Assembly: GCA_029959295.1 (NCBI GenBank)
Contig: JASCOH010000007.1
Location: 225,326-289,325, forward strand
From: Flavobacteriaceae bacterium PS02334
GTDB lineage: Bacteria > Bacteroidota > Bacteroidia > Flavobacteriales > Flavobacteriaceae
Length of the DNA: 64,000 nt
Direction: 5' to 3'
Shown here: positions 14,612-47,811 of the stretch, in pieces
Position numbering within the stretch: the first letter of the stretch is position 1
Layout: each line of letters starts with the position of its first letter
Position numbers and translations under genes: made by a program
Notes under the pieces: generated by a model
Databases searched by the model: none
Seen by the model: the letters and a program-made list of their open reading frames with translations, nothing else
Told to the model about the DNA's origin: nothing

Positions 14612-15049
14612 ATGTCAAAAGTAGAAGATTTTCTAACTGCTGAAGAAGAAGCTGAAATTGTAAAAGCAATTACGCAAGCTGAAAAAAATACTTCGGGAGA
14701 AATAAGAGTCCACATCGAAAATCATACAGAAAAACCTCCGCTTGAAAGAGCTCAGGAGGTTTTTCATTTTTTAGGTATGGATCAGACTTCGTTGCGAAAC
14801 GGAGTGTTGTTTTATGTCGGTGTCGCCGATCATGCTTTTGCCATTATTGGCGATGAAGGCATTGATAAAGCGGTTGAATGTGATTTTTGGGATTGCACAA
14901 AAGATGCAGTCATTTCTAATTTTAAAGAGAATAAATACAAAGAAGGTTTGGTTGCCGGAATATTAAAAGCTGGCGAACGACTCGAAAAGTACTTTCCTTT
15001 TTTAGATGGCGATAAAGATGAATTATCTAACGAAATATCAAAAGGATAA
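14612..15049 (+). CDS. TPM domain protein, soluble
   Basis: Small protein (145 aa) made almost only of a TPM domain (YgcG/psb32 type): FLTAEEEAEIVKAITQAEKNTSGEIRVHIE, then NGVLFYVGVADHAFAIIGDEGIDKAV, and the C-terminal KEGLVAGILKAGERLEKYFP. No signal peptide or membrane helix, so it should work in the cytoplasm or at the inner face of the membrane. It follows lemA and ends exactly where the next TPM gene begins, so the three are co-transcribed. Some TPM proteins have weak phosphatase activity; this is not shown for this one. Confidence 0.85.
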   Translation: MSKVEDFLTAEEEAEIVKAITQAEKNTSGEIRVHIENHTEKPPLERAQEVFHFLGMDQTSLRNGVLFYVGVADHAFAIIGDEGIDKAVECDFWDCTKDAVISNFKENKYKEGLVAGILKAGERLEKYFPFLDGDKDELSNEISKG

Positions 15050-15847
15050 ATGAAAATTTCAACTATAAAAAACACGTTTTTCCTGTCGCTATTTTTGTTG
15101 ATTCAGAATTTGGGTTTTGCACAAATTGACATTCCTCCTATTCCAAAACTTCAAACCAGCGTTTATGATTATGCTGGCGTGATGAATGCTTCTGAGAAAT
15201 CTAATTTGGAACAAAAACTCATCAATTATTCTGATTCTACTTCCACGCAAATTGTTGTTATTACAATTGAAACTTTAAAAGGAGAAGATATCGGAATTTT
15301 AACTCCGAAATGGGGACAGACTTGGGGAATCGGCGGTTCAAAAGAAAATGACAATGGCGTTATTATTCTATTGGCTGAAAAAGAACGAAAAATCTGGATT
15401 TCGCCAGGATATGGTGTTGAAGACAAATTGACAGCGGGAATTACTGGAGAATTAGTCCGAAATGTGATTATTCCAGAGTTCAAAGCCGGAAGTTATTACA
15501 ACGGATTAGACAAAGGTGCCGATGCCATTTTTGACGTCTTGAAAGGAAAATATAAAGGAACTAGAAAACAAGACAAAGGAGAATCAAGCTCCGGCGGACT
15601 GATTTTCTTTATCATCATTTTTGTCGTGCTGCTTATTATCATTTTCAAAAACAAGAATAAAGGAAACGGTGGCAATCGCGGCGGCGGCTTAGATTTATCT
15701 GACATAATTATCTTAAGCAGTTTGGGCCGTGGCTTTGGTGGCGGTTCATCTGGAGGCGGTTTTGGCGGAGGATCATCTGGCGGTGGTTTCGGTGGCGGAT
15801 TTGGCGGCGGCGGCTTTAGTGGCGGCGGTGCTGGAGGAAGCTGGTAA
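15050..15847 (+). CDS. TPM domain protein with glycine-rich tail (YgcG-like)
   Basis: Protein of 265 aa: signal peptide (cut after about residue 25, GFAQ), TPM domain at about 30-170 (VYDYAGVMNASEKSNLEQKLINY, TQIVVITIETLKGEDI, NDNGVIILLAEKERKIWISPGYGVED), one membrane helix at about 183-200, and a long Gly/Ser-rich tail (FGGGSSGGGFGGG type) ending in GAGGSW. This is the classic YgcG layout, with the TPM domain outside the inner membrane and the tail in the cytoplasm. Last gene of the LemA-TPM-TPM operon; a terminator follows. Confidence 0.9.
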   Translation: MKISTIKNTFFLSLFLLIQNLGFAQIDIPPIPKLQTSVYDYAGVMNASEKSNLEQKLINYSDSTSTQIVVITIETLKGEDIGILTPKWGQTWGIGGSKENDNGVIILLAEKERKIWISPGYGVEDKLTAGITGELVRNVIIPEFKAGSYYNGLDKGADAIFDVLKGKYKGTRKQDKGESSSGGLIFFIIIFVVLLIIIFKNKNKGNGGNRGGGLDLSDIIILSSLGRGFGGGSSGGGFGGGSSGGGFGGGFGGGGFSGGGAGGSW

Positions 15848-15867
15848 AACCTTTTTTAACTATTCTA

Positions 15868-15897
15868 AAAGCTCCGCTTATTGCGGAGCTTTTTTTG
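15868..15897 (+). terminator. Intrinsic terminator of the LemA-TPM-TPM operon
   Basis: Perfect stem AAGCTCCGC (15869-15877) / GCGGAGCTT (15883-15891), loop TTATT, then seven T. Confidence 0.9.
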
Positions 15898-15982
15898 TTT
15901 CATATTTGACCAATCTTTCGAAGCCTACTTTTATCTTGCTAAAGACCAATCTAATTTTGTTTAAACATTAATTGATTTACGG

Positions 15983-16255
15983 TAAGCACTAGCTATTACT
16001 GCTTAAACATTTATTAATAACTAATAAGCATTTATTATTATGGCTTAAGCAATTATTGATAAGTAATAAGCAATTGTTGATATGGCTTAAGCATTTATTG
16101 ATAACTAGTAAGCAATTGTTACTATAGTTTAAGCATTTATTGATATGGCTTAAGCAATTATTGATATGGCTTAAGCAATTATTGATATGGCTTAAGCATT
16201 TATAGACAACTAATAAGCAATTGCTACTACAGCTTAAGAATTTATTAATAAGTAG
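15983..16255. repeat. 21-bp tandem array, 13 units without indels
   Basis: Thirteen units of exactly 21 bases, each beginning TAA(G/A)CA or a close variant; the commonest unit reads TAAGCAATTATTGATATGGC plus T. Unit tails alternate between a GGCT-like and an ACTAA-like ending over much of the array, which hints at a 42-base higher period. The minus strand is open throughout in one frame, giving heptads such as CLSHINN and CLLVINK with a Cys every seventh residue. The plus strand is full of TAA stops. There is no ATG start on the minus strand (only TTG). The array lies between two convergent terminators. Confidence 0.85.
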
Positions 16256-16284
16256 TAGCAAAGCTTTATCGCCTTAATTTACCA

Positions 16285-16317
16285 CCAATAAAAAACTCCG
16301 TTATTGCTAACGGAGTT
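16285..16317 (-). terminator. Intrinsic terminator after the GH5 gene
   Basis: Perfect ten-base stem AACTCCGTTA (16294-16303) / TAACGGAGTT (16308-16317) with loop TTGC, followed on the minus strand by TTTTTA. It ends the polysaccharide locus transcript. Confidence 0.85.
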
Positions 16318-16377
16318 GGATCACAAAGAATAAAAAAATATAAAATACTAACTTTAACTTTCTAATGTCTTTGATAC

Positions 16378-18117
16378 TTATTTGGCCTTTTTGAATTCGA
16401 AATAATTCAGGCTGAAACCGCCCTTTTCAAATTTCACTTTTAGTTTATTGCTTCCCTTTTTCAAAGAAATATTTTTTACGGTTATGGTTTTCCAAATAGC
16501 ATTTCCTCCTGTTTTTGGAAGTTCGATAGTTGCTAAAACTTTTCCTGATTCCTCTTCAATTGTCATTTTCCCAGTCTCATCGGCATTTGCATAACGAATA
16601 TCTAAATTGAAATTTGTCTCTTTTGCAGTGACAGTATATTGCATCCATTCGCCAGATTCTATGAAACCTACAGAAAAACCAACACTCGATTTATCTTTAC
16701 ATTCTTGGATGTCAACGCCGTCATTTCGCATGGCGTAGCCTTTATTCCAAGCATCAAAATTTCCGGTTACGGTTCTATAATTTACGAAGTCATTGTCTTT
16801 ATAAGCAATTCCGTTTTGCCCTAAATCATAATGAACCGCAAAAACTTTTGCAGGAAGATTGTGTTTTTTATAAGGCTTTGTTTCCTCCGTTTGCACTTGT
16901 CGAAACATCGCATCTATTACGTCTGGCTTCACAGTCACCTTATCCATTTTATAATTTTTAGCTAACTGCATCAATGCTTTTTTAGCAAAAGCCGGAGTTG
17001 GTTTTTCACCTCCATTTTTCCAATAATCTAGAAGTTTTTGATATTCTGAATTCATGGTTACCGAAGTCACACCCGCAATATTTTCCACTTTTTTCATAGG
17101 CCAAAAAGCCCATCCGATGTTATTTTTCTCCAAAAGGGAAATAGATTCTTTAAACCAAACATTTGAATTTTCGCCGCCTTCGCCCATCCAAATCGGAACA
17201 TTGTGCTCTTTTCTCAAATTCACAATATCTTGAATGGAAGCCTGGTCGTTGTAATTCCAATATTTATGGAAACTCAACACCAAATTTTCATCCCAAAGCG
17301 GAAACATGCCACTGTAATTATTTCCCCAGCAATTGCCTTCAATAATCACCAAATGGTTTTTATCAACGGTTCTGATTGCTTTTGTGATTTCCAATTGCAA
17401 TGCTCGCAACGGCGCATTTAATTTTTCGTCACAGCCGTTTTTGTTCGTTCCAGAGAAATTCCAATTTGGTTCGTTGATGATGTCATAACCGCCAATCCAT
17501 GGATTGTCTTTATATCTTTCCGCTAATTTTACCCAAAGCGCAACCATCTTTTTCTTGTTGGCATCGCTTTCCCAAAGAGAAGGTTTTGACGTGTCATAAT
17601 CAGAAATATTAGCGTCCATTCCTTGGCCACCAGGGGCCGCGTGAAGATCTAAAATCAGATACATTTTATTTTCTGTACACCATTTCAAAAGATCGTCGGT
17701 CATTTTAAATCCTTCTTCCAGCCAAGTATTTTGACCTGCAACCGTTTCCTTTTCAATCGGAAGCGTGTACAAATTATAGTGCATCGGCAACCTTACGGAG
17801 TTAAAACCCCAAGATGCCAGCGAATCGATATCTCTTTTAGCGATGCCATTTTTTAGATATGCTTTATAAAATTCATTCGTAGCTTCAGTTCCGATTAATT
17901 CTTCTATTTTGCTTTTGATCTTAAATTGAGTTCCTGCAAAGCCGTCAGTTTTTAACATATAGCCTTCCTGAACCATCCAGCCTCCGACGCCCAAGCCACG
18001 CAAAATGATATTTTTTCCTGAACCGTCTACAATTTTTTGTCCGTCTCTATGCAAGAAACCTTGCCCAAACATGGAAAAAGAAATGGTTACAAAAAGTAAT
18101 GATAAAGTCTTTTTCAT
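16378..18117 (-). CDS. Glycoside hydrolase family 5 with C-terminal carbohydrate-binding module
   Basis: Secreted beta-glycanase of 579 aa. Signal peptide (about 1-18, ends MFGQ). A GH5 barrel spans about 25-390, with the acid/base Glu in DIINEPNW and the nucleophile Glu in PIWMGEGGENS. A CBM6-like beta-sandwich covers the last 130 residues (GIAYKDNDFVNYR, SGEWMQYTV, SLKKGSNKLKVKFEKGGFSLNYFEF). GH5 enzymes cut beta-1,4, beta-1,3 or beta-1,6 glucans or mannans; the exact substrate cannot be read here, but the GH30 neighbour points to a beta-glucan. It is last in the locus, one base after the GH30 gene. Confidence 0.88.
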   Translation of the reverse strand: MKKTLSLLFVTISFSMFGQGFLHRDGQKIVDGSGKNIILRGLGVGGWMVQEGYMLKTDGFAGTQFKIKSKIEELIGTEATNEFYKAYLKNGIAKRDIDSLASWGFNSVRLPMHYNLYTLPIEKETVAGQNTWLEEGFKMTDDLLKWCTENKMYLILDLHAAPGGQGMDANISDYDTSKPSLWESDANKKKMVALWVKLAERYKDNPWIGGYDIINEPNWNFSGTNKNGCDEKLNAPLRALQLEITKAIRTVDKNHLVIIEGNCWGNNYSGMFPLWDENLVLSFHKYWNYNDQASIQDIVNLRKEHNVPIWMGEGGENSNVWFKESISLLEKNNIGWAFWPMKKVENIAGVTSVTMNSEYQKLLDYWKNGGEKPTPAFAKKALMQLAKNYKMDKVTVKPDVIDAMFRQVQTEETKPYKKHNLPAKVFAVHYDLGQNGIAYKDNDFVNYRTVTGNFDAWNKGYAMRNDGVDIQECKDKSSVGFSVGFIESGEWMQYTVTAKETNFNLDIRYANADETGKMTIEEESGKVLATIELPKTGGNAIWKTITVKNISLKKGSNKLKVKFEKGGFSLNYFEFKKAK

Positions 18118-40967: not shown

Positions 40968-41360
40968 ATGATGGAAAGAGAAAATTCAAACAGATCACGC
41001 AGAATTACCCTGCGCCTGACAGAGAAAGAGTATGCAAAAATTGAAAGCCTGTTCAAGGCAAGCACCTGCAGAAAAATGAGCGACTACGTTCGAAAAAGTT
41101 TATTCAGTAAACCAATTACAACCACTTACCGCAACCAGTCGTTAGATGATTTAATGGAAGAAACCGTTGTGCTATCTTCAGAACTTCGTTCAATTGGAAA
41201 CAACATCAACCAGATTGCCAGAAAAATAAATACGCTGAAAATGATTCCTGAGTTTAAGACACAGCTGTTTTTATTTGATCTGGAAAGAAAAGCACTTTCC
41301 AATAAATTAGAAGCAATAAGCAGTCATACACAGAAAATATCGGAGCAATGGTTGCAGTGA
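40968..41360 (+). CDS. MobC-like mobilization accessory protein
   Basis: 130 aa. N-terminal ribbon-helix-helix-type DNA-binding segment (RSRRITLRLTEKEYAKIESLFKAS, MSDYVRKSLF) and C-terminal helical part with SSELRSIGNNINQIARKIN, the family signature of MobC relaxosome proteins. It should bind oriT and help the relaxase to nick. The last 13 bases overlap the relaxase start (ATGGTTGCAGTGA), so the two are coupled. Start could be the first or second of two adjacent ATGs. Confidence 0.88.
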   Translation: MMERENSNRSRRITLRLTEKEYAKIESLFKASTCRKMSDYVRKSLFSKPITTTYRNQSLDDLMEETVVLSSELRSIGNNINQIARKINTLKMIPEFKTQLFLFDLERKALSNKLEAISSHTQKISEQWLQ

Positions 41361-42592
41361 TTAAAACCAGCCGTTCGATAAACAGCATTCTGAACTATAA
41401 CGAAAATAAAGTCAAAGAAGGAGTGGCTGAGTGTATCAGTGCCGTGAACTATCCTCTAGAATTAGAAAAATTAAGCTTTACCCAGAAGTTAAACCGTTTT
41501 TTAAAACTGTCTTCATTGAATGAGAATGCAAAACGGAACAGCGTTCATATATCGCTTAATTTTGACCCATCAGAAAATCATTCTAAAGAAAAACTGATTG
41601 AAATTGCAGACACTTATATGGAGAAAATAGGTTTTGGGAAACAGCCGTATTTGGTATATCAACACCATGATGCGGGACATCCTCATCTGCATTTGGTCAC
41701 AAACAACATTCAGAGAGACGGGAAAAGAATTGATCTGCATCTGATAGGTCTTAAAAAATCAGAACCTGCAAGAAAAGAAATTGAAGATATATTTGGGCTG
41801 ATAAAAGCAGAGGGAAGAAAACATAAAGAAGTTTTCACTTTAAAACCGATAAGTGTTGGCAGAGTCGAATACGGAAAAGCAGAGTCCAAAAAAGCTATCA
41901 ATTCAGTTTTAAATAAGGTTCTGTTTGACTATAAATATTCAAGCCTGCCCGAACTCAATACCGTTTTAAACCTTTATAATGTTCATGCTGACAGAGGAAG
42001 TGAGGAATCGAGAGTTTTTAAAAACAATGGACTGCTTTACAAGATACTTGACCAGAATTCAAAACCGATAGGCGTGCCTATAAAAGCTAGCGAATTCTAC
42101 AGCAGACCTACACTGAAATTTCTGGAAGGAAAATTTAAGTCTAATGAAGCACAGAAAGAATCCTCTAAAAAACATTTAAAAAATGCCATAAAACTAGCTT
42201 TCCAACGTGAAAATATAATTTCTCCCGAAAAATTATCCAAAGTATTGGAACGAGAAAGCATTCATACAATATTAAGAAAAAGCAATGAAGGACAGCTTTT
42301 CGGAATAACTTATGTTGACCATAAAACCCAATCCGTTTTTAACGGAAGCAGTTTGGGAAAAGAATTCAGTGCAAAAGGAATTCAGGAAAATTGTGCAATA
42401 AACATTCTTGCACTTGAGAGAAAATACCAAAATTCTACTTCAACAAATCCAGAGAACTTAGAACATCTTGAATTAAGAGAATGTGTAAAAGAAAATCTTG
42501 CAGACATCCTGCTTCGTGCGGAAAAAATAAATGACTATGTTTCGAAACAATTTAAACAAAAAAAGAAAAAGAGACTTTTTAAAGGTATATAG
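41348..42592 (+). CDS. Relaxase (mobilization nuclease), MOBP-like
   Basis: 414 aa. N-terminal relaxase domain: an early Tyr in LNYNENKVKEG (residue about 18) as likely nicking residue, then the histidine triad region YQHHDAGHPHLHLVTNNI (about 102-119), which binds the metal. The remainder is a long basic helical region for DNA contacts. It nicks one strand at oriT and pilots it to the recipient. No coupling protein or secretion genes follow, so transfer needs a helper element. A strong terminator ends the mobilization operon. Confidence 0.92.
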   Translation: MVAVIKTSRSINSILNYNENKVKEGVAECISAVNYPLELEKLSFTQKLNRFLKLSSLNENAKRNSVHISLNFDPSENHSKEKLIEIADTYMEKIGFGKQPYLVYQHHDAGHPHLHLVTNNIQRDGKRIDLHLIGLKKSEPARKEIEDIFGLIKAEGRKHKEVFTLKPISVGRVEYGKAESKKAINSVLNKVLFDYKYSSLPELNTVLNLYNVHADRGSEESRVFKNNGLLYKILDQNSKPIGVPIKASEFYSRPTLKFLEGKFKSNEAQKESSKKHLKNAIKLAFQRENIISPEKLSKVLERESIHTILRKSNEGQLFGITYVDHKTQSVFNGSSLGKEFSAKGIQENCAINILALERKYQNSTSTNPENLEHLELRECVKENLADILLRAEKINDYVSKQFKQKKKKRLFKGI

Positions 42593-42665: not shown

Positions 42666-43070
42666 TTACTTATCTTTCCATCTTATTACTTCTAAGATTG
42701 CTAAAACAAGGGCAATGAAAATACTAACTCGAGCAAACCATTTCGTGTACGGATATTCTTTTAGCATTTTTCGTGCTAAGTCTAAGTCAAGTTTTGACTT
42801 TTCAAATTCAATCCTTTCTTTCTCGGCAATATATTTATGCTCTTCAATTATTTGCTTTAAAAATTCTTCTCCTTTTTCAGTTATTGAATATATCGAATCT
42901 CGATTATCATCTTCAACTATCAAACTATTCCTTTCTAAAAGATCAATGTTTTGTATAAAAACAGTTCGATCAAAATATTTTTCAATTTCTCTATTTATAT
43001 CTTGGTCTCTTAAATTGACAATATTTTGTTTAAAAAAAATAAGATAGTTTTTAATTTCGTTATTGTTCAT
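42666..43070 (-). CDS. Winged-helix-like protein with C-terminal membrane helix (cassette 1)
   Basis: 134 aa. The N-terminal part (IQNIDLLERNSLIVEDDNRDSIYSITEKGEEFLKQII) looks like a winged helix: helix, then a wing with the typical Y-x-I-T-x-K-G turn. Then comes a charged helix and a membrane segment at about 112-128 (WFARVSIFIALVLAILEVI). No known family. It is the last of four same-strand genes separated by palindromic repeats; the repeat at 43101-43231 begins 30 bases before its start codon. No such repeat follows its stop. Confidence 0.65.
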   Translation of the reverse strand: MNNNEIKNYLIFFKQNIVNLRDQDINREIEKYFDRTVFIQNIDLLERNSLIVEDDNRDSIYSITEKGEEFLKQIIEEHKYIAEKERIEFEKSKLDLDLARKMLKEYPYTKWFARVSIFIALVLAILEVIRWKDK

Positions 43071-43100
43071 ACTTTTTTTGTTTCGGTTGACTTAACTGAG

Positions 43101-43231
43101 GCATAACGTTCTGGTACTATAGCGAGTTTGGGACTAAATTCAGCCAATTCTTCGGATCTCCCAAATTTTCCAAAAATAAACCAACTTCAAATTAAGCCTA
43201 ATACCCAAATTGCTCGCAACGTGTGTTGGCC
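43101..43231 (-). repeat. attC-like imperfect palindrome, copy A (131 bp)
   Basis: Begins GCATAACGTTCTGG and ends CAACGTGTGTTGGCC on the plus strand. Internal arms GCGAG-TTTGGG and CCCAAA...CTCGC pair, with extrahelical bases between. The AAC...GTT ends, the layout of outer and inner arms and the position (5 bases past one stop codon, 30 bases before the next start) resemble an integron attC site in the minus-strand direction. Similar to copies at 44329 and 45399. Confidence 0.7.
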
Positions 43232-43235
43232 GATG

Positions 43236-44288
43236 TTATTTTATTTCGACATTTAGATAGTCAAATTCCAGTTTTAAATTATCCTTTAGAAATTCTATAT
43301 ACTCTTTATCGTTTTCTGTTGGTGCATATTGACCTACGACAATATGCTTTTTAACTCTTTTATCATTATCATTAAATGAATATAATAAAATTTGTCCTAA
43401 TGCATCCTTAATACATTGAGATGCATATGGTGCTGATTTTACCTCATAAAATGATATGTAATTTGGTTGAAGTAATTTAATATCTACATAGTTTTCTTCA
43501 AGAATTACATTATCTTGACCATATTCTTCTATCAATAATTTTTCAAGTGCTTCTTGAATTTTATTGTGTTTTTGTTCTGCAATGAATGAACGAGTAATCG
43601 TTCTTACTTGTGGTTGTGTATTTCTTTGAGTAGTTGCTTTTCTCGTCGTTCTTAACTTTTTGCGACTTGTCGTTCCAGCAACTTCTTTTACGTTTTTAAT
43701 TTCTCCAAATTCTTTATATAGTTGCCACATAAACTCATAAACATTCAAGTTTGCAGGTTTATTCAAAATCATTAAATTTTGAATCTCTGAAATTTTTGTC
43801 AATCTTGATGTTTGTAATCCAAAATGTTTTGCAATTTTAAATAAAACAGTTTTTTTGTAAATTGGAATTAATCTCTCATTTGAATATAAAAATGCAACTT
43901 TCCATTTGAACAAGTCTGGTAATTGAATATTGTCTATTAAGTCAAATCTTCCAATTTCAGAAAAATGTATTATTTTAATTATGTCTTTTTTGGCATCTTC
44001 AAATGCTACATTTCGATTGTCGCCATATGCTAGTAACCAAGAATATTTATCATCATTCTTGTAGTTTTTAGGTTTTTTGTTTGAATCATTTCTTTCATAA
44101 ATACCAAATTTTATAGAAGTCAGACCTTTTATACTTCCAAGCATTCTTGTTTTAGTTTCAACCCATTGACAAAATGTATCTTTATTTCCAATTCCAACAT
44201 ATTGTTGCAAAGTCATATGGTTGACATTTTCAATTGTCCATCTATTTAAAAATTGGTCAAGTATTTCTTTTAGTTCGTCAATTGTCAT
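43236..44288 (-). CDS. Putative restriction-type nuclease: McrB-N-like domain plus PD-(D/E)XK domain (cassette 2)
   Basis: 350 aa. The N-terminal half (GIGNKDTFCQWVETKT, WLLAYGDNRNVAFEDAKKDI, LFKWKVAFLYSNERLIPIYKK, LFKIAKHFGL) resembles a module I recall in front of McrB-like ATPases. A basic linker follows. The C-terminal domain has the nuclease pattern: Asp in ENYVDIKLL, the E-V-K pair in SFYEVKSAPY and the Gln in ALGQILLYSF. Together these suggest a stand-alone modification- or end-directed nuclease for defence, but this is inference. It is flanked on both sides by attC-like palindromes. Confidence 0.5.
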   Translation of the reverse strand: MTIDELKEILDQFLNRWTIENVNHMTLQQYVGIGNKDTFCQWVETKTRMLGSIKGLTSIKFGIYERNDSNKKPKNYKNDDKYSWLLAYGDNRNVAFEDAKKDIIKIIHFSEIGRFDLIDNIQLPDLFKWKVAFLYSNERLIPIYKKTVLFKIAKHFGLQTSRLTKISEIQNLMILNKPANLNVYEFMWQLYKEFGEIKNVKEVAGTTSRKKLRTTRKATTQRNTQPQVRTITRSFIAEQKHNKIQEALEKLLIEEYGQDNVILEENYVDIKLLQPNYISFYEVKSAPYASQCIKDALGQILLYSFNDNDKRVKKHIVVGQYAPTENDKEYIEFLKDNLKLEFDYLNVEIK

Positions 44289-44328
44289 AATTTAATAGTC
44301 TTTTTCTCTGATTCTGTTTGATAACATC

Positions 44329-44486
44329 TGCCAACGTTTTGGGTGTTACAGCGGGTTTGGGAGTAAATTAGGCCATTTCTTAGGATTTACCGCCCAAGCG
44401 TTAGCGAACAGGGAAAGCAAATCATCCCAAATACAAAACCATCTTTCCCTTAAGCCAATTGCCCAAATTCGTTGTAGCTGTTAGAC
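44329..44486 (-). repeat. attC-like imperfect palindrome, copy B (158 bp)
   Basis: Plus strand begins TGCCAACGTTTTGGG and ends CGTTGTAGCTGTTAGAC. On the minus strand the first seven bases, GTCTAAC, fit the integron consensus RYYYAAC exactly. ACAGCGGGTTTGGG pairs with CCCAAATTCGTTGT through G-T wobbles on the plus strand only, so the strand opposite to the coding strand folds better, as known for attC. It has an extra 25-base insertion in the loop compared with the other copies. Confidence 0.7.
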
Positions 44487-44491
44487 ACAGT

Positions 44492-45367
44492 TTATTTTAT
44501 AATCTGTAAACATTTTTTTAATCGTCTTTGATTGTCTTTATAAAGTTGATGAAAAATTATAAATTGTTTTTGATATGAAGTCAGGGTGTTTTCAATTTCC
44601 ATATATTCTAAATGACAATTTAATAATAGATTAGAAGATTCTAAAGTGATTCCTAAATCAGAGTTCTTCCGATTAAGCTCAAGCATAGGGGCAATTAAAT
44701 TATTGTAAGAGTAATAATAAAATGTTCGTATTTCTCCTAAATCTCCCCAATTTACCCATATCTGATCTTGCGCGTTTAAATATTCAACAAATTTAATTTC
44801 GCTTTTATCGTGTGAAAAATCATTATACTGATGCATTAATTTGTCGTTGAATTTTCGATAATCTTCTAAGTGTGAATTATATTGTTTAAGATGTAAATTG
44901 AAAGTTGAACTTAAATTAACGAGGCTAGTTTGGATTTGTTCTTCAAAATATTTTTGTTGTCGTAAAACTGCCCAAATTTTATGAAAAGCTTTATGCTTAA
45001 TTTTTTTGTTGCAAAAACTCCAAAAGAATTTTTTTCTAAATGAATAATAAATTTCCTTAAAATCAATTTCAAAAATTGTATCTAAGTAGCTTATAGAAGT
45101 TTGTTTGATTATAAAATTATCTTCATTTTTCACTGAAACTTGAGGGTAGAATTCAGCAATACTTTTTTCTTTAGTTTTTAGATCTTTATAAACTTCGTTA
45201 ATTATTAAATTAAAAGTATTTCGGTTTATTTTTCTATCGTTGAATTCTCTTATTTTTAAAAAAATGTAATTTATAATACCGCCTGTAATGAATACAATCA
45301 ATGAGATCATTGTAGGAACAGAAACTTCATTTTTAATTCCGAAAAATTTATTTATCCAATCTATCAT
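44492..45367 (-). CDS. Membrane-anchored helical protein, unknown function (cassette 3)
   Basis: 291 aa. One N-terminal membrane helix at about residues 19-38 (MISLIVFITGGIINYIFLKI), then a cytoplasmic, mostly helical domain rich in Lys, Asn, Gln and aromatic residues (FFWSFCNKKIKHKAFHKIWAVLRQQKYFEEQIQTSL). The general design of one anchor and a long helical body is common among single-gene hypothetical cassettes. No motif recognised. It lies between attC-like copies B and C, with the stop 5 bases from B and the start 31 bases from C. Confidence 0.6.
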   Translation of the reverse strand: MIDWINKFFGIKNEVSVPTMISLIVFITGGIINYIFLKIREFNDRKINRNTFNLIINEVYKDLKTKEKSIAEFYPQVSVKNEDNFIIKQTSISYLDTIFEIDFKEIYYSFRKKFFWSFCNKKIKHKAFHKIWAVLRQQKYFEEQIQTSLVNLSSTFNLHLKQYNSHLEDYRKFNDKLMHQYNDFSHDKSEIKFVEYLNAQDQIWVNWGDLGEIRTFYYYSYNNLIAPMLELNRKNSDLGITLESSNLLLNCHLEYMEIENTLTSYQKQFIIFHQLYKDNQRRLKKCLQIIK

Positions 45368-45398
45368 TTCTTATTAATTACGTCTGTTTGTAAATTGT

Positions 45399-45533
45399 GC
45401 ATAACGTCCTGTAACTATAGTGGGGTTGGGACTAAATTATCCCCATTCTTAGGATTTACTAAATCATCCAAATACAAAAACAATTTTCCATTAAGCCTAC
45501 TGCCACATCCGTTGCAGTAGCTATTAGTTGCTG
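45399..45533 (-). repeat. attC-like imperfect palindrome, copy C (135 bp)
   Basis: Plus strand begins GCATAACGTCCTGTAACTATAG and ends GCAGTAGCTATTAGTTGCTG. Its left part shares GTTGGGACTAAATTA and CATTCTTAGGATTTAC with copies A or B, and its right part shares ATTAAGCC. The stop codon of the next gene (45524-45526) lies inside its right end, as often found where cassette genes run into attC. Confidence 0.7.
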
Positions 45534-46378
45534 TTTTTAATTATTAGGAATTCGTTAAATTCGTCTATGCAATAATTACTTATTGAATATAAGTCAAATT
45601 GGATTTCAGAATTGTTCGATATTTCATTGTAAATTATAACACCAAAATCTTCAATATTTTTAAGTGTTGTTTTAATTATTTTATTTAAATACTTTTCTAC
45701 ATTGTAATCAATATCATTAGATTTTAAAATATTGGGAAGTAGATTGTCATTACTGTTAGTTTCTTTAATTGGAACTCTCATAAATAAAACACCTGCCTTT
45801 CTAGTTAATAAAAAGTCCTTTCCTTTATGAATTATATTATCTCTTATTTGTTTAATATCGTTTAAGTCACCTTCAATATTATTAAGTACCCAAATTATAT
45901 TTTTTGGTAATTTATCTTGATTATTCTCGTTTTTTGCAAACGTTATTAAACTATTTATAGAGTCTTTTTGGGGATATTGTTTTAGTTCTTTATCAGACAA
46001 AGCAATTTTAACAAAATGATACAAAAAATCATATAAGCTTCTCAAATTAGTAAATAGATTTTCTAAAATTACAGAAATATAAAGATTTGATTTATGTCCG
46101 TTGATATTAACTTTTTCGTTAATTTCTTTGAATAAGCAATAATTAATTGGAAGATTATGTAAATCATCTGTAAATCCATTCATTGCCGATTTAATTTTTC
46201 CAAACTCTCTTGCTTTTTCAGAAGATATATCGACTTTTAAGTTTCCATTGTTTTCGTAATTTGAATAAAACCAAGAGTTGACAACAGAAAACAGAACAGA
46301 CGAAAATAATTCTTCTCCAACATAAAAACTTCCTGAATGTGTTAGAATTGTACCTTTTATAATTAGTCTGTTTTTCAT
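45524..46378 (-). CDS. HEPN-like protein with RNase-type Rx4H motif (cassette 4)
   Basis: 284 aa, all helical in the C-terminal two thirds. The segment DLNDIKQIRDNIIHKGKDFLLTRKAG carries R-x4-H (RDNIIH), the catalytic motif of HEPN ribonucleases; the segment ILENLFTNLRSLYDFLYHFVKIALS would be the partner helix. The N-terminal 90 residues are a beta-rich domain (IIKGTILTHSGSFYVGEELFSSVLF). No antitoxin gene is adjacent. A role in defence or RNA cleavage is possible but unproven. Most upstream gene of the cassette-like row; no palindrome precedes it. Confidence 0.5.
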   Translation of the reverse strand: MKNRLIIKGTILTHSGSFYVGEELFSSVLFSVVNSWFYSNYENNGNLKVDISSEKAREFGKIKSAMNGFTDDLHNLPINYCLFKEINEKVNINGHKSNLYISVILENLFTNLRSLYDFLYHFVKIALSDKELKQYPQKDSINSLITFAKNENNQDKLPKNIIWVLNNIEGDLNDIKQIRDNIIHKGKDFLLTRKAGVLFMRVPIKETNSNDNLLPNILKSNDIDYNVEKYLNKIIKTTLKNIEDFGVIIYNEISNNSEIQFDLYSISNYCIDEFNEFLIIKNSN

Positions 46379-46615
46379 ATTCTGCTTTAAAATAGCTATT
46401 GAAATTTATCAGAGATTATTTATTATCAAATATATAATAATAAGCTTAGACCTCATCAAGGAGGCTTTTAATTTGTTGGGTACTTTTCATACTAATGCAA
46501 GTGTAAATTTCAATGATATTAATATAGAGTATAGGTTATTAGGAATAGCATATCTCTTGGTATTGTCACAATAAAATTGAAAATCTATTAAAGAGATTCT
46601 TACCCTACTAAGTAT

Positions 46616-47713
46616 TTATATATCAAGATATTCCTTTATCAAATCAATTTTTTGCTCAATTTGTTTTTCTGCTTCGGAAGGCTTTAATTCATTTGGTTTA
46701 AATCCTTTTATATCCTTATGACAGCTACTACAATATTCTCCTATTTCATTTCTTTTAGAACAATCACAACTCCAAACTTCTTTTTCTTTCGATGACAACA
46801 TCTGCTTTTTAAATGTTTTTGTCCCTCTTTCAAAAAAATTATTTTTGATATACTCTAGTATAGTATCTAAATCTTTCTTGTCTTTTTCATCATAAAATGG
46901 TTTATCATAGGTAGCCATTTTTAGTGCTATCTTTTGTACATTAAAATTATCATCATTCAATAGTTTTATTATTTCGTCATAATTGAATAAATTTAAATCC
47001 TTTATAACTATTGATAGATATTCAGATATTGAAGTATTTTCGGCTCTTTTAATATAATCATATAAAAGTCTTATTTTTTGATCTTCTTTCAAAACATCAA
47101 CATAGTTAATAAATCTTTTATTAAAAGAATTATAAACCTCTCCGTAATTTTGAGGCGTTGTGATTATATCTGAATATCGTTTAAGTATATTGGGAAAAAC
47201 TTCTTCTATTTGATTTTCTATTACGAAGTTCCAAAAATCTTCATCTGCTGTCAAAATTCCTGATTGAGCATCTCTAATTAACTCCTTCTTTTTACGTAAA
47301 ATATTTATTTTTTCAATACTTACAATTTCAACCTTGTCATCTCGATCCAAAAGGGAATTAATCGCATTCTCTTTTTCGATAATAACTGCAGTACCAATGG
47401 CTGTAATCATAAACATAGATTTTCCTTTACCTGAAATTTCGTCTAGATCAATACTTAATCCAATGATACAATTTCCACCTATTTCGTGTGTTGCAAGTTT
47501 TATTTTTTCTATTGCTTCATTATATATTGAAGATAATTGCTTTTGATATGCATTAGATCGACCTCCAAAAACATCAGTTAGCCCTCCCATAAAATCACTA
47601 AAGAAATTAGTTCCAGCAACAACATGCGCGGTTACAGGTTTGAGAGGCTTTTTAATTTTTAATCCTTCTATCGAAGAAGTTGTCAACACTAAAACATCTT
47701 TTGGATTTACCAT
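46616..47713 (-). CDS. YbjQ/UPF0145-like domain protein with C-terminal zinc ribbon
   Basis: About 365 aa from the ATG at 47713 (MVNPKDVLVLTTSSIEG), the natural start of the YbjQ fold. The N-terminal 110 residues fit UPF0145/YbjQ: VLVLTTSSIEGLKIKKPLKPVTAHVVAGTNF, DVFGGRSNAYQKQLSSIYNEAIEKIKLA, GGNCIIGLSIDLDEI. A long helical repeat-like region follows. The C-terminal zinc ribbon has SCDCSKRNEIGEYCSSCHK. YbjQ proteins usually end after the first 110 residues, so this is a fusion. Function unknown. It stands alone in AT-rich DNA. Confidence 0.65.
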   Translation of the reverse strand: MVNPKDVLVLTTSSIEGLKIKKPLKPVTAHVVAGTNFFSDFMGGLTDVFGGRSNAYQKQLSSIYNEAIEKIKLATHEIGGNCIIGLSIDLDEISGKGKSMFMITAIGTAVIIEKENAINSLLDRDDKVEIVSIEKINILRKKKELIRDAQSGILTADEDFWNFVIENQIEEVFPNILKRYSDIITTPQNYGEVYNSFNKRFINYVDVLKEDQKIRLLYDYIKRAENTSISEYLSIVIKDLNLFNYDEIIKLLNDDNFNVQKIALKMATYDKPFYDEKDKKDLDTILEYIKNNFFERGTKTFKKQMLSSKEKEVWSCDCSKRNEIGEYCSSCHKDIKGFKPNELKPSEAEKQIEQKIDLIKEYLDI

Positions 47714-47811
47714 ATCTTTTTTTTTGTTTTTTAATGAAATACTTACACTTTGCTTACAGATCAAAAAATATCAAAGCACTTGTTTGATTATTAGAATTAT
47801 TACTGAGTTTC

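Follow-up and report, generated by a model that had tools for sequence, protein, structure and literature searches.

The 64,000-nucleotide (nt) stretch of the Flavobacteriaceae bacterium PS02334 genome analysed here, which we call the window, carries at positions 42666-46378 four minus-strand genes separated by three related palindromic repeats. A preliminary description, made from the sequence alone, had taken this piece for a row of integron cassettes without an integrase. That description was right about the cassettes; its assignment of them to the canonical integrons is not supported, as the recombinases linked to such arrays lack the IntI domain by which that family is defined. The repeats are very probably the recombination sites of an integron-like cassette system in Flavobacterium, and more widely in the Flavobacteriaceae, that employs a tyrosine recombinase other than IntI; the enzyme running this gene-capture system appears to differ from the known integron integrase. 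A full locus has three parts: the recombinase gene (mostly encoding ~350 amino acids), an attI-like site that usually follows it at ~100 nt, and cassettes lined up in a single orientation.

The gene row in the window and its repeat family

On the minus strand, gene 45524-46378 comes first and is followed by site C; then come gene 44492-45367 with site B behind it, gene 43236-44288 with site A behind it and, last, gene 42666-43070, which has no site behind it. The repeats, located at 43101, 44330 and 45399, form one direct-repeat family, and all three are matched on the minus strand by R1, our covariance model of the sites: site A (43105-43227) with 89.0 bits, site B (44333-44482; at 150 nt the longest of the three) with 66.8 bits (E 7.7e-12) and site C (45403-45525) with 72.5 bits (E 4.8e-13). 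Site A belongs to the model, B and C do not, and sites A and C seeded the nhmmer search that supplied R1's candidate sites. The three related repeats and the four same-strand genes are as first reported; of the sequence blocks said to be shared among the copies (TAACGT and others), exact matches occur in only some copies. Counted from one GTT core to the next, cassette 1 (45403-46403) comprises the gene 45524-46378 (284 amino acids) and ends with site C, cassette 2 (44333-45405) runs from the GTT of site C to site B and contains the gene 44492-45367 (291 amino acids), and cassette 3 (43105-44335) runs from the GTT of site B to site A with the gene 43236-44288 (350 amino acids). Pfam assigns no family to these three larger open reading frames (ORFs), and the nuclease- and HEPN-like genes initially proposed find no backing there. 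The last gene, beyond site A (42666-43070), is winged-helix-like with Pfam matches below the cut-off, and is possibly a truncated fourth cassette; a gene that resembles it by eye lies near an array of Flavobacterium chungbukense, on the opposite strand (L216:8367-8792). Rfam holds no family matching the repeat, either for the window region or for five array loci.

The genome of PS02334 has further copies of the repeat on contig C22. With a single copy (L009) as the query we obtained matches in 56 of 101 Flavobacterium genomes, and a one-repeat BLAST over the family hit 4 of 199 genomes; since the latter search reached almost exclusively the genus itself, a covariance model was needed. A blastn search with one repeat copy did not find it in plasmid and phage records. 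Iterated nhmmer searches on regions picked for their matches uncovered long rows of up to 29 sites, this longest one extending over ~46 kb in genome G243. Once shadows on the opposite strand had been discarded, the count stood at 202 sites, spread over 34 of 43 loci. All sites lie on one strand in each of the 27 loci that have at least three, and the longest ORF of the cassette is on the site strand in 133 of 154 cassettes (on the opposite strand in 20, with no ORF in one). R1, built from 62 of 79 chosen sites, detects sites in 86/101 genomes of the genus, in 105/149 genomes of the family (approximately one genome per genus) and in 68/148 genomes of the phylum, where individual sites were checked in a few loci. 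As a negative control, 358 kb from 38 sources gave no match at E<=1e-3 (the best scored 27.8 bits). The E-values are rough, and the numbers of sites per genome are lower bounds, with at most 34 candidates scored per genus genome and at most 23 per family or phylum genome.

Other elements adjoin or interrupt some of the arrays. A tRNA gene (L129:13691-13761) lies directly beyond the last detected site of one cassette array. The G243 array contains two IS91-like elements (L072:10779-12652 and 14741-16614), each with a tyrosine recombinase and a Y2-type transposase, named by look. The same foreign flank sits directly at the AAC of two G243 sites and recurs at a site in another genus (L230); IS91-like elements may target the attC-like sites.

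Cassette borders, shared cassettes and site structure

An integron cassette extends from past the crossover of one attC into the following attC, and therefore it is the two ends of a cassette, not those of a single repeat, that should be complementary. We compared the 8 nt before the AAC of each site with the reverse complement of the 8 nt after the GTT of the previous site. The match is 5.95/8 over 154 consecutive pairs, as compared to 2.76/8 within the own repeat (143 pairs) and 2.77/8 in shuffled repeats (standard deviation 0.105, maximum 3.17 in 2000 shuffles; z=30 for the observed value). The same test was applied to sites that R1 had found in other genera and other classes, using 81 of 86 matches and excluding five weak or cut-off ones. 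Other genera yield 6.0/8 versus 2.64 (standard deviation 0.22) over 43 pairs from 10 loci, with 33/43 pairs at 6 or more. Other classes yield 5.67/8 over six pairs from two loci (4/6 at 6 or more), and these pairs alone prove nothing, since shuffles reach the same value.

We then mapped the extent of the match in the 133 of 154 cassettes that have at least five of six matches at nt 4-9, positions that are biased by this very choice. Identity is 0.69-1.0 up to nt 15 and 0.11-0.28 from nt 16 onwards; nt 11 is a fixed exception (identity 0.02), with an A at the cassette start set against a G (96 cassettes) or a C (33) at the end. In the window, the two testable cassettes match at 12/15 nt (site B) and 14/15 nt (site A), which is beyond chance given that random GTT/AAC pairs of the window reach at least 11 matches with P=0.007 and at least 13 with P=0.0001. 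As judged by these matches, the repeating unit is shown to span from one GTT core to the next. A locus of another class (L231, genome G352) has R1 sites with both the cassette-end match and the nt-11 exception; G352 is absent among the genomes listed with IntI.

Cassettes are also shared between genomes. A cassette of G127 is 94% identical in DNA over 574 nt to one in PS02334 itself, outside the window (L011); the likeness runs from the cassette start into the attC, the last few dozen nt of which are less alike, and both the attC before and the genes behind are unrelated. Cassette 1 of the window has a counterpart in Flavobacterium chungbukense that encodes a protein of 85% identity; a site comes next, and a different gene lies beyond it. 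The DNA likeness starts within a few nt of the cassette start and ends at the end of the site. These alignments show closely similar cassettes in different surroundings in different species, and the repeat is joined to different genes in other Flavobacterium genomes, the outcome that the reading in the preliminary description required. The cassette 3 protein has matches in five further genomes when 348 of the genus are searched: the one in G284 is 61% identical along the whole protein, and the others, at 32-35%, lie inside much larger ORFs. A scan of 94 cassette-type proteins gave Pfam matches to 52 families, none of them in more than three proteins. The cargo includes acetyltransferases, a few defence-like genes and many genes of no known type.

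An alignment of 62 sites defines a stem of 18 pairs, 16 of which have changes on both sides. There are 286 double-change cells versus 92.8 in shuffles, and the covariation score of 0.653 compares with 0.197 for shuffled alignments and at most 0.096 when the pairing is slid; the sites share descent, and such structure counts are non-independent events. This covariation shows that the site is predicted to fold into a hairpin. AAC and GTT at its ends are nearly invariant, and the flanks often violate the RYYY/RRRY pattern (for example GTTATGC). The spacer beside AAC is 3 nt long in 62/62 sites and that beside GTT 7 nt in 60/62, a 4-nt asymmetry; a single extrahelical base within the aligned arms is present in one of the 62. 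Several measures favour the bottom strand. Pair 18-112 is unpaired on the top (gene-sense) strand in 61/62 sites, being A.C in 57/62 and hence G.T on the bottom strand. Of the differences in the inner arms (169 sites), 336 give a bottom-strand wobble and 78 a top-strand one. When each site is folded together with its own cassette start (133 distinct sequences), the bottom strand folds better in 126 under DNA parameters; under RNA parameters the count is 112.

The array-linked recombinase and its relation to IntI

All 16 genomes searched contain tyrosine recombinase genes, and one class, mostly of ~350 amino acids, is encoded immediately 5' of the arrays. Profile A2, built from 11 array-linked recombinases, detects this class at 290 bits or more in 54/101 genomes of the genus; the next proteins score at most 206 bits, and the commonest, Xer-like ones ~140-165. 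Taking the 30 best-scoring recombinase loci with ~1.5 kb on each side, we found sites in 17, and 22/22 sites lie downstream on the same strand. Nine of the 30 genomes had served to find or build A2; among the other 21, sites are present in 11. By comparison, 22 loci of Xer-like tyrosine recombinases contain no site. In other genera, among the matches listed, 13 contigs have a recombinase and a site within 15 kb of each other. The site is behind the recombinase on the same strand in 11 (G003, G022, G024, G025, G056, G069, G078, G087, G101, G114 and G118), and two are divergent (G001 and G044), the 5' end of the array facing the recombinase. Across the 101 genus genomes, the median number of sites is 16 with the recombinase versus 3 without (p=1.6e-6; the counts saturate). 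Relatives at E<=1e-50 occur in 102/149 family genomes, a threshold that also admits some IS91-linked proteins, and 80 relatives at 40-48% identity turned up among viral contigs. In PS02334 the recombinase gene is on contig C44, divergent from three weak sites. In many family genomes, genes of this class often lie within a few hundred bases of a contig start, which would be expected if assemblies break at the adjoining repeat array.

Behind the stop codon of the recombinase gene there is a conserved stretch with an inverted repeat, which in most loci ends like ATATAC(A/T)A-GTT. In 8 of the 9 Flavobacterium loci whose first site was detected, the sequence after this GTT agrees with the first cassette's end; the junction is 99-102 nt from the stop codon in five loci and 43-152 nt in three. 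A similar junction occurs in 5/8 loci of other genera, 96-110 nt behind the stop codon and with 8-9 of 9 nt matching; one of these, L219, has its first detected site at a distance of 8 kb. Contig C44 of PS02334 has a matching attI-like junction 78 nt from the recombinase start. By position and by this match, the recombinase, the attI-like junction and the array are shown to co-occur in a fixed order.

Integrons are defined, and sought, via the integrase IntI, whose special additional domain contacts extrahelical bases of attC. By the TIGR02249 cut-off of 265 bits, IntI is present in 84 of 296 phylum genomes and in none of the 149 family genomes. The G243 array enzyme scores 210 bits against TIGR02249, below the cut-off and in two stretches split at the IntI insertion; its best NCBIfam match is NF040815 (231 bits, cut-off 220), alignment with one phylum IntI gives 31% identity and gaps where the insertion lies, and its closest solved relatives by sequence are PDB 5hxy and 4a8e. 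In an alignment, the IntI-specific insertion is present in 12/12 IntI proteins versus 0/12 array-class enzymes. In a tree of 47 proteins, IntI (100/99), Xer-like proteins (100/99) and array enzymes (93/64) form separate groups, and the array enzymes together with IntI and an IS91-linked protein stand apart from Xer (100/99). An AlphaFold2 model of the recombinase (mean predicted local distance difference test score, pLDDT, 79; predicted template-modelling score 0.50; residues 167-170 and 322-340 below a pLDDT of 50) has a predicted N-terminal strand-strand-helix stretch ahead of the usual core. In 12 regions surrounding canonical IntI genes, R1 detects no site at E<=1e-3. Canonical attC, sought by hand near IntI genes of other classes, gave a few candidates in 4/12 regions.

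The flavobacterial system shares with IntI integrons, such as the Vibrio superintegron and class 1 integrons, a recombinase, an attI-like site and a one-strand array of genes and attC sites, as well as the GTT core, the bottom-strand hairpin and the diversity of accessory genes. Unlike in those integrons, its recombinase has no additional domain and falls outside the IntI clade, its sites have the nt-11 exception and the 3/7-nt spacer asymmetry and, in 61/62, no single extrahelical base, and the recombinase gene is mostly oriented as the array (divergent in the genome of PS02334, G001 and G044). The XerA-like and XerC-XerD recombinases (NF040815, TIGR02224 and TIGR02225) are of the same family as the array enzyme, which differs from them in a ~70-residue extra stretch at the N-terminus, in its linkage to arrays and in branching separately from the Xer-like proteins that these genomes also encode. 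Judged by its sequence features, the system would act like an integron and yet lacks the defining IntI domain; we therefore regard it as a variant of the integron rather than a canonical one.

Competing explanations, proposed mechanism and implications

A number of observations weigh against an integron-like system run by the array recombinase. In the window we found neither a tyrosine recombinase, in line with the preliminary description, nor an attI. The AAC and GTT ends that had been ascribed to all three copies hold for A and B, and the aligned triplet of site C is AAT; cassette 1 starts with TTC (46403-46401) in the window versus GTT in Flavobacterium chungbukense. The claimed advantage of bottom-strand folding is borne out for site B and for the repeat family as a whole, but sites A and C do not have it when folded alone, and site A with its cassette start folds better on the top strand. 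In the family, pair 9-122 points the opposite way (T.G on the gene-sense strand in 30/62 sites), and without cassette starts the bottom strand is favoured in 104/160 sites and the top strand in 53/160; given this drop, much of the strand bias stems from the outer arms. The canonical-looking site L241 likewise has a long cassette-end match, and the length of the match may therefore not be special to this system. Matching attI junctions are absent from L083 in Flavobacterium and from L224, L225 and L226 in other genera, 4 of the 54 genomes with the recombinase carry no site, and 2 of 12 array-class recombinases (L122 and L124) are encoded at contig ends without any visible site. The array group in the tree has modest support (93/64) and long branches, which make the finer order unsure. 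Finally, no detectable site is near the Chryseobacterium relative (L217; 58%) of the cassette 1 protein, and none was found in 20 kb around the G284 relative (L218) of the cassette 3 gene. The piece in the window is an integrase-less cassette cluster, partly decayed and with decayed ends; it is like other integrase-less clusters, differing from them in that its sites fit another recombinase class.

In one competing explanation, close to that of the preliminary description, the row is a true cluster of attC sites lacking integrase neighbours (CALIN), made of canonical attC sites whose IntI integrase has been lost. The GTT/AAC cores, the gene-site order, the single orientation and the bottom-strand fold are all integron features. 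One of the 94 cassette ORFs matches Pfam Cass2, a family named for integrons, and IntI is common elsewhere in the phylum. Moreover, 14 genomes of other classes are listed for both R1 sites and canonical IntI, which also counts against our interpretation: given this co-occurrence, R1 may pick up canonical attC outside the family. We nevertheless consider a CALIN improbable, as none of the 149 family genomes passes the IntI cut-off, 12/12 recombinases of the class standing at the intI position are without the IntI insertion, the sites have a build of their own, and R1 detects none in the 12 regions searched near canonical IntI genes.

Could the housekeeping recombinases XerC and XerD move the cassettes instead, as in pdif modules, with the array recombinase a mere passenger? 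Tyrosine recombinases were found in every one of the genomes searched for them, and 36/47 genus genomes without the array recombinase still carry sites, another point at odds with the interpretation that we favour. Against XerC/XerD stand the constant position and orientation of the array recombinase with the attI-like junction behind it, the larger number of sites where it is present and the lack of any near the 22 Xer-like loci, and the sites themselves, ~125-nt hairpins unlike dif, which is 28 bp. We judge this explanation highly improbable. Even less credence can be given to intergenic repeats spread in some other way, as repetitive extragenic palindromic (REP) or miniature inverted-repeat transposable element (MITE)-like elements or as terminators, that merely happen to lie between genes. 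The repeats are indeed palindromic, intergenic and multi-copy, but the cassette-end match extends over two repeats and the intervening gene, and a repeat spreading as a unit is disfavoured because it would not match its neighbour's flank; in addition, shared cassettes carry the gene together with the repeat.

Under the integron-like system that we favour, a mechanism can be proposed from the order and borders of the cassettes and the computed structure of the sites, from which we infer the action of the enzyme, the single-strand step and the choice of strand. The recombinase would cut at the GTT core, and a cassette would be excised as a circle via recombination between two attC-like hairpins. 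The excised circle would rebuild the long outer stem and could integrate at attI through a crossover in GTT. The enzyme presumably acts on the folded bottom strand of attC; lacking the additional domain of IntI, it would have to read the site differently, and the strand may be told by the conserved A.C mismatches (G.T wobbles on the bottom strand) together with the fixed 4-nt asymmetry by the core, not by extrahelical bases. The copy in the window would be movable only in trans, for example by the recombinase on C44 of the same genome. More broadly, we think it rather probable that this is a second integron lineage, spread across the Flavobacteriaceae and perhaps in other Bacteroidota, in which single-strand cassette recombination proceeds without the IntI domain and G.T wobbles and a 4-nt bulge choose the strand; it would be either a sister to the known integrons or an independent origin of the integron principle.

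Several neighbours of the window array deserve mention. MobC-like and MobA relaxase genes (40968-42592, by Pfam) abut its 3' end, and a mobilisable element may adjoin the cassettes. Upstream of the array, the DNA of a YbjQ-domain gene (46616-47764) has a 69% identical counterpart that is a cassette gene in G228; in the window, no site lies behind this gene. A predicted pPIWI-associating nuclease (PF18165 and PF18166; 50575-51417) is encoded a few kb from the array.

A literature search, outside which preprints and most subscription journals lay, returned no description of such arrays in Flavobacterium. A passage of the IntegronFinder 2.0 paper mentions, for Bacteroidetes, only In0 elements from earlier finds and one complete integron, in Salinibacter ruber (PMC9024848), and by a further account IntegronFinder takes as an integrase only those proteins that also match an IntI-specific profile (PMC9668308). 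Searches relying on IntI would probably miss the flavobacterial system, and a parallel system could explain why few integrons have been reported in surveys of the Bacteroidetes. If our interpretation is true, the additional domain of IntI would be dispensable for cassette recombination and the encoding of strand choice would become directly testable; the system would also contribute a large reservoir of mobile accessory genes, as yet little known, in common environmental bacteria.

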